A DNA stretch of 64,000 nucleotides, from contig NZ_CP032418.1 of assembly GCF_003595195.1 (NCBI RefSeq), forward strand, positions 818,501-882,500, written 5' to 3'. Positions within the stretch are counted from its first letter, which is position 1. Each line of letters opens with the position of its first letter. The notes under the pieces are model-generated. The model was given only the letters and a program-made list of their open reading frames with translations, made no database searches and had not been told where the DNA came from. Both the position numbers and the translations under genes were made by a program. This document shows, piece after piece, positions 40,575-44,427 of the stretch. The stretch is from Paenisporosarcina cavernae (GTDB lineage Bacteria > Bacillota > Bacilli > Bacillales_A > Planococcaceae).

Positions 40575-41666
40575 TTGAAAAATTTGTTTCGCATTTTAGT
40601 CGTACTTGGAATCATTGGTGTTATTTTCATTCTGACGAATTCAAATGTAAAAGAAAATAATGTCTTGCAAGCTCCTACATCTGGTAACGTAGCAATCCCA
40701 GAATCAAATTTAATCACTCCGGTAGATGAAGAAAATGTTCCTCGTCCGAAAGAAGGACTATCGACATACATTGGCAAGGATGTATCTAGCTTCGAAAAAA
40801 TGTTTGGTAAACCGGATCGAGTAGACCCTTCTGCATACGGTTATTCTTGGTGGGTGTATAACCAATCGATGGAATACATGATGATTGGTGTAAAAGATAA
40901 AAAAATCGTGCAAGTGTATATAGCTGGCGATGGTTTAAATGCATCACCTTTTCAAGTTGGGCAAACAATAGAGGATTTATATCGCACCACGATAATTGAG
41001 TCGGAGATTTCAGTTTCTATTGGAAACAATACGTATACATTTACGTTGTTAGAAGATGATTTGAAAAATCGTATTTTAGTTAAAATGACGGATGTTTTGG
41101 CTCAAGTCTATGTGGATGAAGAGGATGAAGTAGTGGAAGCGATTCGATTTATGGATGCCGAAACACTTGTCCTACATCAACCTTACGAAATGATGTATGC
41201 TGGGGATTATTTAGCACCAGCCGTTCCGTCTACGGCAAAGCAAATTTCGATTGATCGGGCAAATGAAAAACAATTGTTTGCGCTGACAAATATCTATCGA
41301 GTAAAGCATGGACTTGACGAATTAACGTATGATTATTTTATTTCCAAAACAGCTCGACAGCATAGTGAAGAAATGGTGATTCAACATTACTTCTCTTCTG
41401 AATCTCCTGGTTACGGCGATTTGCAATCACGATTAAGTACGGAAAAAATTGACTACAAAAAAGCTGCAGAGAACATCGCGGAAAACTATTATGATGCTGC
41501 AGAAGTGGTTCATGGTTGGTTGAATTCAGACGATCATCGGGACACGTTATTGGACGAAGATATGACGAATGCCGGCGTTGGAGTATTTGGTCGGATGTAC
41601 ACGGAGACCTATGTTTCAAGAGAGCTGGGAGAAGATTCCTCGTCTAATACACCAGCTAAAGAGTGA
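40575..41666 (+). CDS. ylbC: CAP-domain protein YlbC
   Basis: 363 residues. N-terminal membrane segment or signal (~5-21), a CAP-associated domain (~63-200, G-K-D-V-S-S-F-E-K-M-F-G-K-P-D) and a C-terminal CAP/SCP domain (~230-350) with H-S-E-E-M, A-A-E-N-I-A and W-L-N-S-D-D-H-R. Secreted or membrane-anchored; biochemical activity of bacterial CAP proteins is largely unknown. TTG start with GGAAGGAG 7 nt upstream. Matches ylbC in place and domain order. Confidence 0.88.
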   Translation: MKNLFRILVVLGIIGVIFILTNSNVKENNVLQAPTSGNVAIPESNLITPVDEENVPRPKEGLSTYIGKDVSSFEKMFGKPDRVDPSAYGYSWWVYNQSMEYMMIGVKDKKIVQVYIAGDGLNASPFQVGQTIEDLYRTTIIESEISVSIGNNTYTFTLLEDDLKNRILVKMTDVLAQVYVDEEDEVVEAIRFMDAETLVLHQPYEMMYAGDYLAPAVPSTAKQISIDRANEKQLFALTNIYRVKHGLDELTYDYFISKTARQHSEEMVIQHYFSSESPGYGDLQSRLSTEKIDYKKAAENIAENYYDAAEVVHGWLNSDDHRDTLLDEDMTNAGVGVFGRMYTETYVSRELGEDSSSNTPAKE

Positions 41667-41670
41667 TAGT

Positions 41671-41711
41671 AAAAAAGGAACCATCACATTTCAACGATGG
41701 TTCCTTTTTTT
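41671..41711. terminator. Bidirectional terminator between ylbC and the aspartokinase-like gene
   Basis: AAGGAACCATC pairs perfectly with GATGGTTCCTT, with A and T runs outside. The last codons of the minus-strand gene lie within it. Confidence 0.9.
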
Positions 41712-42397
41712 GCTTCATAAAATGATGTGATTTCTAACGGTATACGCCATTGTTTAGCCAAAGTAGTTGCTTTGGAATGAATGATGGGTTTATCACACGC
41801 GCAAATTTCTTCAAGTTGCTCATATGATAGAAAATCAAACATCTCTCCATGTTTGTTTAAAACTCCTGGAACATCTTTATAAAAAATTACTTTTTGTGCA
41901 TTTACCATCTCTGCTACGTAAATTGCGCTTAAGTCGCTTCCACCTCTTCCAAGTGTCGTGATTTTTCCTTCTAATGTCGTTCCCTGAAACCCAGCAATAA
42001 TTAAGCATTCGACCTTCTCTAGTGCTTCTAATAACTTTTCTTTTTCTAATTGTATGACGGTTGCTTGACCAAATTGGTTATCCGTACGTATACCTATCAT
42101 GTTTCCATAACACAAGGAACACTTGATGCCTTTCTGTTCTAACAATTGTTGAAAAATAGCAATCGATATTAATTCTCCGCAACTACTGATTAAGTCGCTG
42201 GCTTCTGTCTGTGATTCCTTTTTCGGTAATAAGGAAAGTAAAGAGTCTGTGGCATATGGATCTGGAGATCTCCCTATAGCAGATAGGACAACAGCTGTCT
42301 TCGAATGCTCGGTGACTGCATCGATAACTTTTTGAACACACATTTCTCTATGCGAAGCGGTTTGCATAGCAATACCACCAAATTTTTGAACAATCAT
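41684..42397 (-). CDS. Aspartokinase-like amino acid kinase without ACT domains
   Basis: 237 residues. Starts I-V-Q-K-F-G-G, the aspartokinase N-terminal motif, with S-A-I-G-R-S-P-D-P-Y-A-T-D (as in DapG), S-C-G-E and G-R-G-G-S-D-L-S-A. It then stops where normal enzymes (~400 aa) continue into two ACT domains. No ACT remnant lies downstream; a terminator begins at the stop. Known aspartokinases use ACT domains for feedback by Lys, Thr or DAP, so this one may be unregulated. AAAGGGG lies ~8 nt before the ATG. Divergent from a MurE-family gene (100 bp). Whether it phosphorylates aspartate is unproved. Confidence 0.75.
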   Translation of the reverse strand: MIVQKFGGIAMQTASHREMCVQKVIDAVTEHSKTAVVLSAIGRSPDPYATDSLLSLLPKKESQTEASDLISSCGELISIAIFQQLLEQKGIKCSLCYGNMIGIRTDNQFGQATVIQLEKEKLLEALEKVECLIIAGFQGTTLEGKITTLGRGGSDLSAIYVAEMVNAQKVIFYKDVPGVLNKHGEMFDFLSYEQLEEICACDKPIIHSKATTLAKQWRIPLEITSFYEAKKGTIVEM

Positions 42398-42422
42398 TTA
42401 TCTACCCCTTTAGACGATAGTG

Positions 42423-42450
42423 ACCCTTTGCACGCAAATTTCATATGGTA
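42423..42450 (+). promoter_or_regulatory. Sigma-K-like promoter candidate before the MurE-family gene
   Basis: GACC (AC at 42423-42424) followed 16 bp later by CATATGGTA (42442-42450), matching the sigma-K pattern ACm-N16-CATAnnnTA. I see no convincing sigma-A hexamers in the 100-bp divergent space. Short motif, so chance is possible. Confidence 0.35.
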
Positions 42451-42497
42451 CATTAACCTGTTTCTAGATTATGCAAGCAAATTTTCGAAGGTGTGGG

Positions 42498-43955
42498 GTG
42501 GAAATCGTTTTTATTTCCGAGCTGTTAAAGAATTGGCCATGTGACTGGAAGCAAGGGAACTATCGTCAAGAGGTAAATCGTATTTGTAGCGATTCTAGAG
42601 ATGTCCAAAAAGGCGATATGTTTGTAGCGATTGATGGAAAAAAGGTAGATGGGCACGATTTTGTACACGAGGCGATTGTAAATGGGGCTGACTGTATTGT
42701 TGTTGAAAAAGAATTAGCGGTCGAGTTCTTCCAAAACGAAGAAGTGGCTGTATGCATTGTTCCAAATACAAAGAAATTTTACGCATATGCATGTGCTGCT
42801 GTTCGCAATTTCCCATCGCAAAAGGTAAAAGTCATTGCGGTAACAGGAACAAATGGGAAAACGACTACTTGCGCATTCATTTCCCAATTATTAACCCAAT
42901 TAGGTGTATCAAATGCCACTATTGGTACGAATGGTTGTTATGTAAATCAGCAAAAACTATCCGACGCTCCAAAGCACATGACAACTTGGGATGCTAATGA
43001 ATTGCAACAAATGATTAGTGTCTGTGTGGATCGTGGAATTGCTGTACTCATTATGGAAGCTTCCTCGATTGGGTTAGAAAATTATCGATTGGACGGTTGT
43101 GACATCGATATTGGAGTTGGGTTAGCCATAAATCATGATCATATCGATGAACATGGTTCAATCGAAAAGTACATCCATGCAAAATTACGACTTTTAGAGT
43201 TAGCCACTACATGTGTCGTTGATTTCAATGATAATACATGGTTTCAAGCGTCACAAAACAAAGGAAAAGATGTCCGTTTTTTTCGGGTAGAAGACTACGA
43301 AATGATTTCTGAAGAACTGACAAATATGACGTTTGTTCATCTCGATTCCAAAGTGAAACTAAACTGTCGTTTCAGTGGGGAACATTTAACATATGATGTC
43401 ATTGCGGCAATTTCCGCCTTAAAGGCACTAGGTTATTCGTTAGAGGAAATTGGCTGTTTCACTCCCACCCTTGCGTTACCAGAGGGAAGAAGTACGACCC
43501 AAGAGGTGAATGGGGTATATGTGGTTATCGATTATGCCCATACCCCGAAAGCGTTACAAGAAACGCTCAAATGGTGCGCAAAAAATTGTCAGGGTAAATT
43601 AATTACTGTTTTTGGTTGTGGTGGTGATCGAGACAGACAAAAACGCGCCATGATGGGGGAAATCGGCTGTTATTATAGTCAATATTTAATCATCACTTCC
43701 GATAATCCGCGTACAGAGGACCCAATGGTTATCTGTCAGGAAATTGTCGGTACACTTCCTTCAACCAATCGAATTGAAATTATCGTTGATCGAAAGACTG
43801 CTATTGAGAGAGCGTTAAAATTGGCAAATGAAAATGACGTTGTGGTGGTAGCAGGAAAAGGACACGAAATGTATCAACAAATTGGGGTTGAAAAAATACC
43901 ATTTTCAGACTTTCAAGTAGTCGAGGACTTTAAAAAGAATCATTTTCTGTTATGA
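42498..43955 (+). CDS. MurE-family UDP-MurNAc-tripeptide ligase paralogue (meso-DAP-type motif)
   Basis: 485 residues in three Mur ligase domains. ATP loop G-T-N-G-K-T-T (117-123, Lys121), carbamylated Lys229 in H-A-K-L-R-L, D-Y-A-H-T-P, F-G-C-G-G-D-R-D-R, then D402-N-P-R405 and G-K-G-H-E457. In E. coli MurE the corresponding Asn and Arg of DNPR and the Glu of GKGHE contact meso-DAP. Departures from the norm: E-A-S-S-I-G-L (Ile191 where MurE usually has His) and T-T-W-D. Normal murE sits in the pbpB cluster; this copy is between ylbC and ricF. GTG at 42498 is chosen because GAAGGTG precedes it. Likely adds an amino acid to UDP-MurNAc-dipeptide. Confidence 0.82.
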   Translation: MEIVFISELLKNWPCDWKQGNYRQEVNRICSDSRDVQKGDMFVAIDGKKVDGHDFVHEAIVNGADCIVVEKELAVEFFQNEEVAVCIVPNTKKFYAYACAAVRNFPSQKVKVIAVTGTNGKTTTCAFISQLLTQLGVSNATIGTNGCYVNQQKLSDAPKHMTTWDANELQQMISVCVDRGIAVLIMEASSIGLENYRLDGCDIDIGVGLAINHDHIDEHGSIEKYIHAKLRLLELATTCVVDFNDNTWFQASQNKGKDVRFFRVEDYEMISEELTNMTFVHLDSKVKLNCRFSGEHLTYDVIAAISALKALGYSLEEIGCFTPTLALPEGRSTTQEVNGVYVVIDYAHTPKALQETLKWCAKNCQGKLITVFGCGGDRDRQKRAMMGEIGCYYSQYLIITSDNPRTEDPMVICQEIVGTLPSTNRIEIIVDRKTAIERALKLANENDVVVVAGKGHEMYQQIGVEKIPFSDFQVVEDFKKNHFLL

Positions 43956-43980: not shown

Positions 43981-44427
43981 ATGATGATGACCTCAGAGTG
44001 GGCATTGATAATGGATGAAGCCGATCTGTTAACCGAGATGATTCTTTCATCAGAGGTCGTTAAAGCTTATTTCAACGCATATGAAAAGGTATATGAAAAT
44101 CCAGTGCTTGTTGATAAGCTTAGACGCTTTATCAAGATGAAAGAGCTTTATGAAGAAGTTCAAAGGTTCGGCAGATATCATCCAAATTATCAAGAAACAA
44201 TGAAGGAGATTCGTGTTTTAAAACGCGAGTTAGATATAGATGAGCATATTGCTGCACTAAAAGTGGCAGAAAATGACGTTCAAGACTTACTTGATGAAGT
44301 CAGTTTATTAGTTGGGAAGACTGTCTCTGATTCCGTAAAAGTGCCAGTTTCAAATCCGTTTTTTGCAACGGATTCTAGTTGTGGTAGCAGCTGTGGAACC
44401 GGTGGGAGTTGTTCTTGCTCGGCTTAG
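43981..44427 (+). CDS. ricF: RicF (YlbF), subunit of the RicA-RicF-RicT complex
   Basis: 148 residues. Helical YlbF/YmcA domain (1-~115), then a flexible tail with four Cys (134, 138, 144, 146) in a Gly/Ser context. In B. subtilis the RicAFT (Y-)complex carries 4Fe-4S clusters and aids RNase Y-dependent mRNA maturation, competence, biofilm formation and sporulation; the tail Cys take part. GGAGGGATG lies ~5 nt upstream of the first ATG. It follows the MurE-family gene by 25 nt. Confidence 0.9.
   Translation: MMMTSEWALIMDEADLLTEMILSSEVVKAYFNAYEKVYENPVLVDKLRRFIKMKELYEEVQRFGRYHPNYQETMKEIRVLKRELDIDEHIAALKVAENDVQDLLDEVSLLVGKTVSDSVKVPVSNPFFATDSSCGSSCGTGGSCSCSA

Follow-up and report, generated by a model that had tools for sequence, protein, structure and literature searches.

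The described enzymes most comparable to the ligase considered here are the meso-diaminopimelate (DAP)-type MurE proteins of E. coli (1e8c) and M. tuberculosis (2wtz, 2xja), with which it shares its domain order and the motifs TGTNGKTT, GCGG.RD, DNPR and GKGHE. Unlike these proteins, the ligase, here called MurE2, lies outside the dcw cluster as an extra copy beside a lysine-type MurE encoded elsewhere in the genome, is fast-evolving, is found only in the spore-formers of one family, and carries EASS[M/L/Q/I] in place of EVSSH. The L-lysine ligase of S. aureus (4c12) belongs to the same enzyme family, and its closest relative in this genome is not MurE2 but the paralogue MurE1; the site that reads DNPR in MurE2 is DNPA in the S. 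aureus enzyme and DDPR in MurE1. For the aspartokinase encoded next to MurE2, the nearest described counterpart is DapG of the B. subtilis type (aspartokinase I, spoVF operon). The two have in common the best NCBIfam model, the closest outside homologs, most active-site motifs and a link to sporulation, whereas the kinase described here lacks the two C-terminal ACT domains, is encoded at another locus, has a GGIA loop and scores below the model cut-off.

The vegetative walls of the Planococcaceae are described as being of the lysine or ornithine type, and the spore cortex of Lysinibacillus sphaericus contains DAP. Tipper and Linnett are said to have found, in the 1970s, a sporulation-induced DAP-adding activity in extracts of Lysinibacillus (Bacillus) sphaericus; its activity and timing are those predicted for MurE2, although it is an activity of extracts. 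Among the matches listed, the titles and opening lines of abstracts of open-access PMC papers name neither a cortex-specific murE nor a gene for the L. sphaericus activity. The lysine/DAP switch itself is old biochemistry, and the assignment of a gene to it appears to be new. MurE2 is a candidate for the switch in wall chemistry by which a lysine-walled cell makes a DAP cortex, and the question of why the cortex needs DAP becomes approachable through one gene.

The locus was analysed within a 64-kb window of Paenisporosarcina cavernae, the window being the whole stretch of 64,000 nucleotides. A first-pass annotation had described a full-length MurE-family ligase divergent from an aspartokinase that ends before its ACT domains, had placed the pair between ylbC and ricF, and had proposed that, if the organism resembles L. 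sphaericus, the pair could supply and add DAP only in sporulation. Both reading frames were found where that annotation had placed them, between two flanking genes whose names are carried over from it:

40575..41666, plus strand: ylbC-like flank, conserved left neighbour
41668..41714, no strand assigned: inverted repeat between ylbC and the aspartokinase (-21.1 kcal/mol, z -7.4; T-run on both strands)
41684..42397, minus strand: aspartokinase of 237 aa, made up of the catalytic domain without ACT domains (PF00696, motifs, orthologs divergent from MurE2)
42471..43955, plus strand: MurE2, MurE-family ligase, predicted to add meso-DAP, sporulation-linked (domains, models, motifs, clade)
43981..44427, plus strand: ricF-like flank, conserved right neighbour

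The MurE2 frame is complete, with matches to all three domains (Mur_ligase, Mur_ligase_M and Mur_ligase_C), and alignment with relatives indicates that its true start is probably the GTG at 42498. The aspartokinase has no ACT domain and a single AA_kinase domain, which spans residues 1-224 of its 237. A gap of 17 bp lies between its stop codon and the ylbC terminus, and the final kinase codons fall inside the inverted repeat common to the ylbC side, which is probably a two-way terminator; this repeat is absent from the output of a terminator scan with a loop limit of 8. The ylbC-like flank matches a YkwD-type domain below cut-off, and the ricF-like flank has no NCBIfam match. In the spore-forming genera read, the pair or MurE2 occupies this same gap: the ylbC-like gene is present at 8 of 9 MurE2 loci (all but L159) and, where intact MurE2 is lacking, at 19 of the 20 loci read (all but L230), and the ricF-like gene at all nine MurE2 loci and in 20/20 genomes. 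Our preferred reading, to which we give a probability of about 0.8, is that in the mother cell MurE2 attaches meso-DAP to the precursors of the cortex, and that the kinase feeds cortex DAP, dipicolinate or both without ACT feedback.

MurE2, MurE1 and the predicted substrate

The genome search yielded three full-length MurE-like genes and no more, encoding MurE1, MurE2 and MurE3. None lies in the dcw cluster, where mraY comes straight after a spoVD-like gene, and the vegetative murE1 gene adjoins prfC. The first-pass annotation had expected a dcw copy lacking the Arg of the DNPR site; this expectation fails, as no such copy exists and MurE1 keeps the Arg. MurE1 and MurE2 form separate clades in a quick type of tree, from which 10 of 111 rows had been dropped as near-duplicates, truncated or odd; the MurE2 clade, including the focal copy, has an SH-aLRT value of 96. 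The focal copies are long-branched in both the MurE tree (0.99 changes per site) and the kinase tree (1.46). Outgroups were drawn from a scan of genome contigs dominated by other MurE proteins that kept 80 loci, in which one family MurE2 was recognised among the matches listed, that of Sporosarcina highlanderae (L067). It falls within the MurE2 clade, which points to the Planococcaceae as the family surveyed; 22 other loci were read, two of them dropped before the tree was made.

Profile models place MurE2 in the family. It scores 412 bits to TIGR01085 and 422 bits to NF001126 (cut-off 373), and the latter has no discriminating power because it is also passed by MurE1 (536 bits) and MurE3 (392 bits); this NCBIfam DAP-ligase model thus gives one name to lysine-type and DAP-type paralogues. 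MurE2 keeps GCGGDRD and TGTNGKTT as well as the DNPR and GKGHE noted in the first-pass annotation. GKGHE, present in 44/45 MurE2 rows including the focal one, is likewise uninformative, since MurE1 has it too (26/26). The DNPR site does separate the clades: its Arg is present in 45/45 MurE2 rows and its Asn in 44/45, and the equivalent in MurE1 is DDPR in 26/26, an Asn-to-Asp difference at the second position. Ile191, reported as a departure from the usual His, is real but not peculiar to the focal protein; the whole MurE2 clade has EASS[M/L/Q/I] (45/45), as against EVSSH in 26/26 MurE1.

Among solved structures, MurE1 scores highest against the L-lysine ligase of S. aureus, with 466 bits compared with 276 for the E. 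coli enzyme; for MurE2 the S. aureus ligase ranks tenth at 180 bits, the DAP ligases scoring 193-246. According to PMC3829189, the DNPR residues Asn and Arg contact the DAP carboxylate in the E. coli and M. tuberculosis enzymes, and an A409R substitution in S. aureus MurE conferred no DAP activity, so that DNPR alone does not set specificity. This last result, the departure of EASS[M/L/Q/I] from other MurE proteins, and the rank of the T. maritima lysine ligase as the second-best solved relative of MurE2 (242 bits) lend something to the idea that MurE2 is sporulation-specific but adds another residue, such as lysine or ornithine, and differs from MurE1 in timing only. We consider this improbable: the T. 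maritima enzyme carries DDPR, as MurE1 does, where MurE2 retains both Asn and Arg, and there is scant reason for spore-formers alone to keep a second lysine ligase. Under the preferred reading, MurE1 would be of the L-lysine type and the growing wall would carry lysine; MurE2, made in the mother cell, would join meso-DAP to UDP-MurNAc-L-Ala-D-Glu, and the cortex precursors would thereby carry DAP.

Distribution of the locus in spore-formers

The survey covered 121 genomes of the family, of which 89 have a SpoIVA that is not visibly broken; the other 32 comprise 29 with no SpoIVA match and three with a broken spoIVA. MurE2, with a reading frame no shorter than 436 aa, is present in 89/89 of the former, and an intact MurE2 in 0/32 of the latter, 12 of these being judged by search alone, among the matches listed. 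For 17 of the 29 SpoIVA-less genomes the locus itself was read, and the ylbC-ricF gap there holds no trace of MurE2 or kinase; a MurE2 as diverged as that of genome G020 would escape the search at E <= 1e-40. G020, with an intact SpoIVA, had itself been missed at this threshold and was rejected as an exception, as its locus encodes a diverged 436-aa MurE2 with DNPR and GKGNE next to a short kinase of unclear start. At genus level, with the mixed genus g2 left out, the association is 12/0 versus 0/6 (Fisher p = 5e-5, for lineages that are not independent). YpeB was matched in 88/89 of the MurE2 genomes and 0/32 of the others, in all cases below the curated cut-off of its model. The three genomes with broken spoIVA (G001, G038 and G054) retain only C-terminal pieces of MurE2 and kinase in the gap, the kinase remnant of G001 amounting to 25 residues.

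By presence and absence across the family genomes, MurE2 is sporulation-specific, and murE2 can serve as an easy genomic indicator of whether a member of the family forms spores. The link to sporulation claimed for the pair stands for MurE2, which tracks SpoIVA and decays with it, and not in full for the kinase, which is present in only 47/89. Neither of the two observations named in the first-pass annotation as contrary to its proposal was made, namely a DNPR-bearing dcw MurE together with DAP-type walls, or a pair equally frequent in non-spore-formers. Both enzymes belong to general pathways and vegetative use would still be compatible with the data, so the pair might be imagined as a housekeeping DAP/lysine module with no connection to spores; given that no intact copy was found among the 32 genomes lacking an intact SpoIVA, the co-decay in three of them, and a scan of the gap 42398-42497 that returned no sigma70-like site, we regard this as very improbable.

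Putative mother-cell promoters

Two promoter-like elements lie between the divergent genes:

42420..42450, plus strand: putative mother-cell promoter of murE2 (-35-like GTGACCCTT, -10-like TCATATGGTA; CATATGGTA at 42442-42450)
42465..42496, minus strand: putative aspartokinase promoter of sigmaK type (-10-like GCATAATCTA at 42465-42474, with CAC upstream)

Upstream of murE2, the pattern CATAnnnT[A/G] occurs in 28/28 distinct sequences from the genera that have the pair and in 20/20 regions from kinase-less genera (48/48), these 20 being the distinct sequences among 21 loci extracted of 23. It was found in 1/25 regions upstream of MurE1 and in about 8-10% of shuffled sequences; the pattern was picked after the alignment had been seen, and the MurE1 regions were measured from the earliest potential start codon, not necessarily the one used. 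The two kinase-less loci missed in the extraction (L153 of g13 and L155 of g19) also carry it, and spoIVA promoters show the same -10 pattern (18/18). A matrix trained on these 18 promoters (20 were fetched, two without a recognised start) placed 0/28 murE2 regions above the 95th percentile of shuffles, compared with 11/28 for the kinase strand and 3/25 for MurE1. Proof by matrix of a sigmaE promoter for murE2 is therefore rejected, there being no excess over shuffles, and since the matrix did not pick this promoter, the assignment to a sigma factor draws on the -10 block, its spacing and its conservation. On the kinase side, [CA]AC followed after 15-18 bp by G[AC]ATA occurs in 28/28 sequences and in 8% of shuffles, this pattern also being post hoc; the spacer is 18 bp in the window and 15-16 bp elsewhere.

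The short aspartokinase and the dipicolinate operon

The best NCBIfam model for the short kinase is PRK08210 (NF006068), which we take to be the model of the B. subtilis DapG type, at 220 bits against a cut-off of 474 for full-length proteins. An ortholog divergent from MurE2 was found in 46/46 genomes of g1, g3, g4, g5, g6 and g17, and also in G020. The ACT-less form is clade-wide: in the remaining 45 genomes of the six genera that have the pair, the kinase beside MurE2 has an open frame of 242-318 aa. The remaining 42 of the 89 MurE2 genomes have no short kinase, and it is therefore not the fixed partner of MurE2. Among 398 genomes of the class, nine relatives were found outside the family, with open frames of 406-473 aa; of the eight loci read, all contain dpaA, asd and dapA, and seven also dpaB. 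The nearest outside relatives of the short kinase are, by these comparisons, full-length DapG proteins of dipicolinate operons. Descent from DapG was not taken as proven, the kinase tree being unrooted.

The dipicolinate operon of P. cavernae itself, the one genome in which the operon was read for this gene, is dpaA-dpaB-asd-dapA and lacks dapG between asd and dapA. Its DpaA has diverged and scores 83 bits, with the cut-off at 320; its DpaB passes its own cut-off. Since dapG is missing from this operon, the kinase may work for dipicolinate no less than for cortex DAP. One could go further and suppose that it works mainly for dipicolinate, the task of dapG having moved here from spoVF, with the adjacency to murE2 reflecting only a shared mother-cell timing. 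The identity of the outside relatives is consistent with this, as is the upstream element, which fits the later factor sigmaK, if the putative assignment is right; PMC5629000 describes dipicolinate synthesis as a late event in the mother cell. On the other hand, the kinase adjoins murE2 and not dpaAB, and the 42 kinase-less MurE2 genomes also have no aspartokinase above the DapG-type cut-off, which none reached in any of the 121 family genomes; dipicolinate, if made in those 42, needs neither enzyme. We see a mainly dipicolinate role as quite possible, with the balance leaning against it. The P. cavernae genome also encodes a second, full-length aspartokinase of another subfamily (627 bits to PRK06635.1-5, 366 to the DapG-type model), which could supply both DAP and dipicolinate and is counted against our preferred reading.

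In that preferred reading, the short kinase would phosphorylate aspartate in the mother cell without ACT-mediated inhibition, and its product would feed asd and dapA, both of the dpaA-dpaB-asd-dapA operon, at the time when DAP and dipicolinate are both required. It would fill the role that DapG, encoded in the dipicolinate operon, has in other families of the class. The proposal that the pair supplies and adds DAP in sporulation gains, for MurE2, from the co-occurrence, the DNPR/DDPR difference and the promoter element, and loses, for the kinase, from its not being obligate and its possibly equal service to dipicolinate. A wider scenario, which we hold tentatively and at slightly under even odds, is a family-wide rewiring of the aspartate branch for sporulation. 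A cortex DAP ligase would have become fixed in the ylbC-ricF gap, dapG would have been lost from the dipicolinate operon, and an ACT-stripped kinase, driven by a late mother-cell promoter, would have come to lie divergent from the ligase, so that a divergent promoter region of ~100 bp would switch the third position from lysine to DAP and open an unregulated flux into both DAP and dipicolinate; the kinase would later have been dropped in one clade.

These roles presume an active enzyme. KFGG, Thr-Asp, CGE and GRGGSD are kept, and the first loop is changed from GGTS to a GGIA type throughout the clade. This change and the ERGGSD of the G020 copy could be signs of a catalytically dead protein or a regulatory relic. 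We think this unlikely, as GRGGSD is present in 29/30 short sequences and GE in 30/30, and the AA_kinase domain is complete. The short kinase is moreover under purifying selection, with dN/dS values of 0.05-0.12 in 10 congeneric pairs (two dS values exceed 1), and a naturally ACT-less aspartokinase maintained in this way bears on flux control by ACT domains and on lysine and dipicolinate production.

Composition of the murE2 locus and the MurE paralogues

The gap between ylbC and ricF (gene names from the first-pass annotation) is occupied by murE2, which encodes a MurE-family ligase predicted to add meso-DAP, and by a divergent short aspartokinase gene.

Features of the P. cavernae genome (window positions, or C1 for the genome's contig and L for loci extracted from it)
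42471-43955, + strand: MurE2 ligase, 494 aa, probably 485 aa from the GTG at 42498
41684-42397, - strand: short kinase, 237 aa
41668-41714: inverted repeat, probable two-way terminator, overlapping the last codons of the short kinase gene; -21 kcal/mol, z -7.4
C1:876001-896000 (L151), right end of the window: dcw cluster without murE
C1:1022145-1025551 (L305:2145-5551): dipicolinate operon dpaA-dpaB-asd-dapA

The first-pass annotation's complete ligase and aspartokinase without ACT (feedback) domains are both borne out, the former containing all three Mur ligase domains and the latter a complete amino-acid kinase domain with nothing further. The Ile reported in place of His in MurE2 is indeed present, but is no oddity of one copy, as EASS[M/L/Q/I] is found clade-wide (45/45). 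The short kinase gene and ylbC are 17 bp apart, and therefore there is no space for an ACT remnant; the inverted repeat at their 3' ends looks like a terminator serving both genes. Both focal proteins form long branches with respect to their own genus (about 42-45% identity), and the genome measures only 2.54 Mb; relaxed or altered constraint on the two proteins in P. cavernae is possible.

A search of this genome (2.54 Mb, one contig) recovered three full-length MurE-like genes and a fourth match spanning only 116 residues. All three paralogues passed the NCBIfam DAP-ligase model, and therefore annotation alone is unable to tell them apart. The murE gene that had been expected in the dcw cluster is absent: there, mraY comes immediately after a spoVD-like gene (633 bits vs a cut-off of 688), itself preceded by one of PBP2 type. 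The vegetative paralogue, MurE1 (C1:762305), predicted to be of the lysine type, lies instead between prfC (818 bits) and a gene identified by eye as a PAS histidine kinase. Among solved structures it scores highest against the S. aureus L-lysine ligase 4c12 (466 bits), ahead of T. maritima (303) and E. coli (276). The third paralogue, MurE3 (C1:554365; L008:5338-6849, 503 aa), has DHPG in place of DNPR, the motif at the DAP-carboxylate site, and lacks GKGHE. MurE3-like copies also occur in genera g8 and g12 of the comparison set.

A quick tree built from 101 MurE proteins puts MurE2 of the spore-forming genera into one clade (SH-aLRT 96) and MurE1 into a separate one (SH-aLRT 100); MurE3 and a fourth group lie apart, and the MurE2 copy of genome G020 (genus g2) is too diverged to be placed. 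At the DAP-carboxylate site MurE2 has Arg in 45/45 rows, Asn in 44/45 and the full DNPR in 39/45; the site reads DDPR in 26/26 MurE1 and DNPR in 20/22 outgroup MurE proteins. According to PMC3829189, DAP enzymes bind the free DAP carboxylate through the Asn and Arg of DNPR, and the motif alone does not fix specificity, S. aureus A409R being without DAP activity. The T. maritima lysine ligase carries DDPR, as MurE1 does; the best solved relatives of MurE2 are a bifunctional protein (246 bits) and then this ligase (242), that of S. aureus scoring 180. The fourth group (13 rows, L193-L196, L198-L203 and L208-L210, from genera g2, g8 and g12) has DD[L/R]N and GFRG.RD. The four g2 genomes have no MurE1-type copy among the matches read and seem to rely on the fourth-group enzyme.

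Co-occurrence of MurE2 with sporulation

The sporulation marker SpoIVA was matched in 92 of the 121 family genomes; it is broken or fragmentary in three (G001, G038 and G054, genus g2), and that of G099, interrupted by a contig end, was taken as intact. MurE2 searches matched 88 genomes, 77 at ≥295 bits and 11 (genus g5) at 218-256 bits, the latter accepted with the short kinase adjacent by match coordinates; an 89th, G020, was recognised by reading the locus. MurE2 is present in 89/89 genomes with SpoIVA not visibly broken, and intact copies were found in 0/32 others, where absence in 12 comes from searches alone, among the matches listed, and 17 loci without SpoIVA were inspected. The marker YpeB was matched, never above the curated cut-off, in 88 genomes, every one among the 89; the lone MurE2 genome without a match, G064, is a draft of about 160 contigs. 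At the genus level, excluding the mixed g2, the distribution is 12/12 vs 0/6 (p = 5e-5, a guide only, the genera being related).

No trace of MurE2 or the kinase was seen in the 17 inspected non-spore-former loci, ylbC being next door in 16. Non-spore-formers occupy at least four separate positions in the MurE1 tree, so several independent co-losses of MurE2 and sporulation are likely if that tree tracks the species. In G001, G038 and G054 the ylbC-ricF gap holds C-terminal MurE2 pieces (about 110-120 residues) and kinase remnants of 115 residues in two genomes and 25 in G001. Genus g2 is apparently in the process of losing sporulation, these three (L226-L228, L234-L236) having a broken spoIVA and no YpeB match; their sister G020 retains spoIVA, YpeB, murE2 and the kinase, the latter two diverged.

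Promoter-like elements and the proposed role

Upstream of murE2, CATAnnnT[A/G] occurs in 28/28 distinct sequences of pair-bearing genera and 20/20 of kinase-less genera, this pattern and that toward the kinase having been picked after viewing alignments of related sequences. Two kinase-less loci outside the extracted upstream set likewise contain it; controls gave 1/25 MurE1 upstream regions and about 8-10% of shuffles. The CATAnnnT[A/G] -10 pattern is likewise present in 18/18 spoIVA upstream regions from this family, with GCATGAA twelve bases earlier, which agrees with the sigmaE layout (8 nt, 12 +/- 1, 10 nt) given in PMC517825, where sigmaK spacing is 15 +/- 1. In the kinase direction, [CA]AC, 15 to 18 bp and G[AC]ATA are found in 28/28 (8% of shuffles), an arrangement that comes near the sigmaK layout. 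A spoIVA-trained matrix gave the sigmaE call no support (0/28 murE2 regions), and no sigma70-like site is listed in the gap between the two genes. From these upstream sequences we read murE2 and the kinase as being under mother-cell sigma control, by sigmaE or sigmaK.

Most likely, these factors would turn on murE2 in the mother cell, and MurE2 would load UDP-MurNAc-dipeptide with meso-DAP. The DAP precursors would build the cortex, the vegetative wall being made from lysine-type precursors. A kinase without ACT control would increase aspartyl phosphate for asd and dapA, supplying DAP and dipicolinate alike. In B. sphaericus, whose vegetative wall has lysine, a DAP-adding activity reportedly arises on sporulation (work of the 1970s), and a 1974 article by Guinand, Michel and Tipper is said, by its title, to describe a DAP-peptide hydrolase that appears during sporulation. 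The activity is a known one; MurE2 is the candidate gene proposed here. No gene for the DAP-adding enzyme is named in the open-access titles and abstract openings among the best matches listed, and earlier naming outside that literature is possible.

The short kinase and the dipicolinate operon

The short kinase lies divergent from MurE2, 74-194 bp off by match coordinates (median 105), in 46/46 genomes of six genera, and G020 also bears it beside MurE2. The searches found no short kinase in 42 MurE2 genomes; the MurE2 proteins of these form one subclade (SH-aLRT 99, 16 rows), and this would fit a single loss. Eight loci of kinase-less genera have MurE2 in the ylbC-ricF gap, some with an extra gene before ricF; one such locus, L159, has no ylbC match listed. 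Active-site motifs are retained in the short kinase except for GGTS, which has become GGIA, and dN/dS is 0.05-0.12 (ten pairs) for the kinase and 0.04-0.16 (five pairs) for MurE2.

Among 398 class-wide genomes, MurE2 was matched at E ≤ 1e-85 in 24, all within the family, and the kinase at E ≤ 1e-50 in 25: 16 in the family, all short, and nine outside it, all with open frames of 406-473 aa. In eight of these nine loci, those that were read, dpaA, asd, the kinase and dapA are consecutive (8/8), with dpaB in 7/8. In P. cavernae, by contrast, dapG, the full-length aspartokinase gene of such operons, is absent between asd (end L305:4639) and dapA (start 4649), which are 9 bp apart; DpaB, asd and dapA score above model cut-offs, and DpaA is diverged (83 bits vs 320). 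The DapG-type cut-off was reached in 0/121 family genomes. With dapG absent from the operon and no family genome reaching the DapG-type cut-off, the short kinase stands where DapG's work is missing. The kinase tree, being unrooted, does not prove the possible descent of the short kinase from a relocated, shortened DapG. The genome's other aspartokinase, full length and of another subfamily (627 bits on PRK06635.1-5, 366 bits on the DapG-type model), could serve as well.
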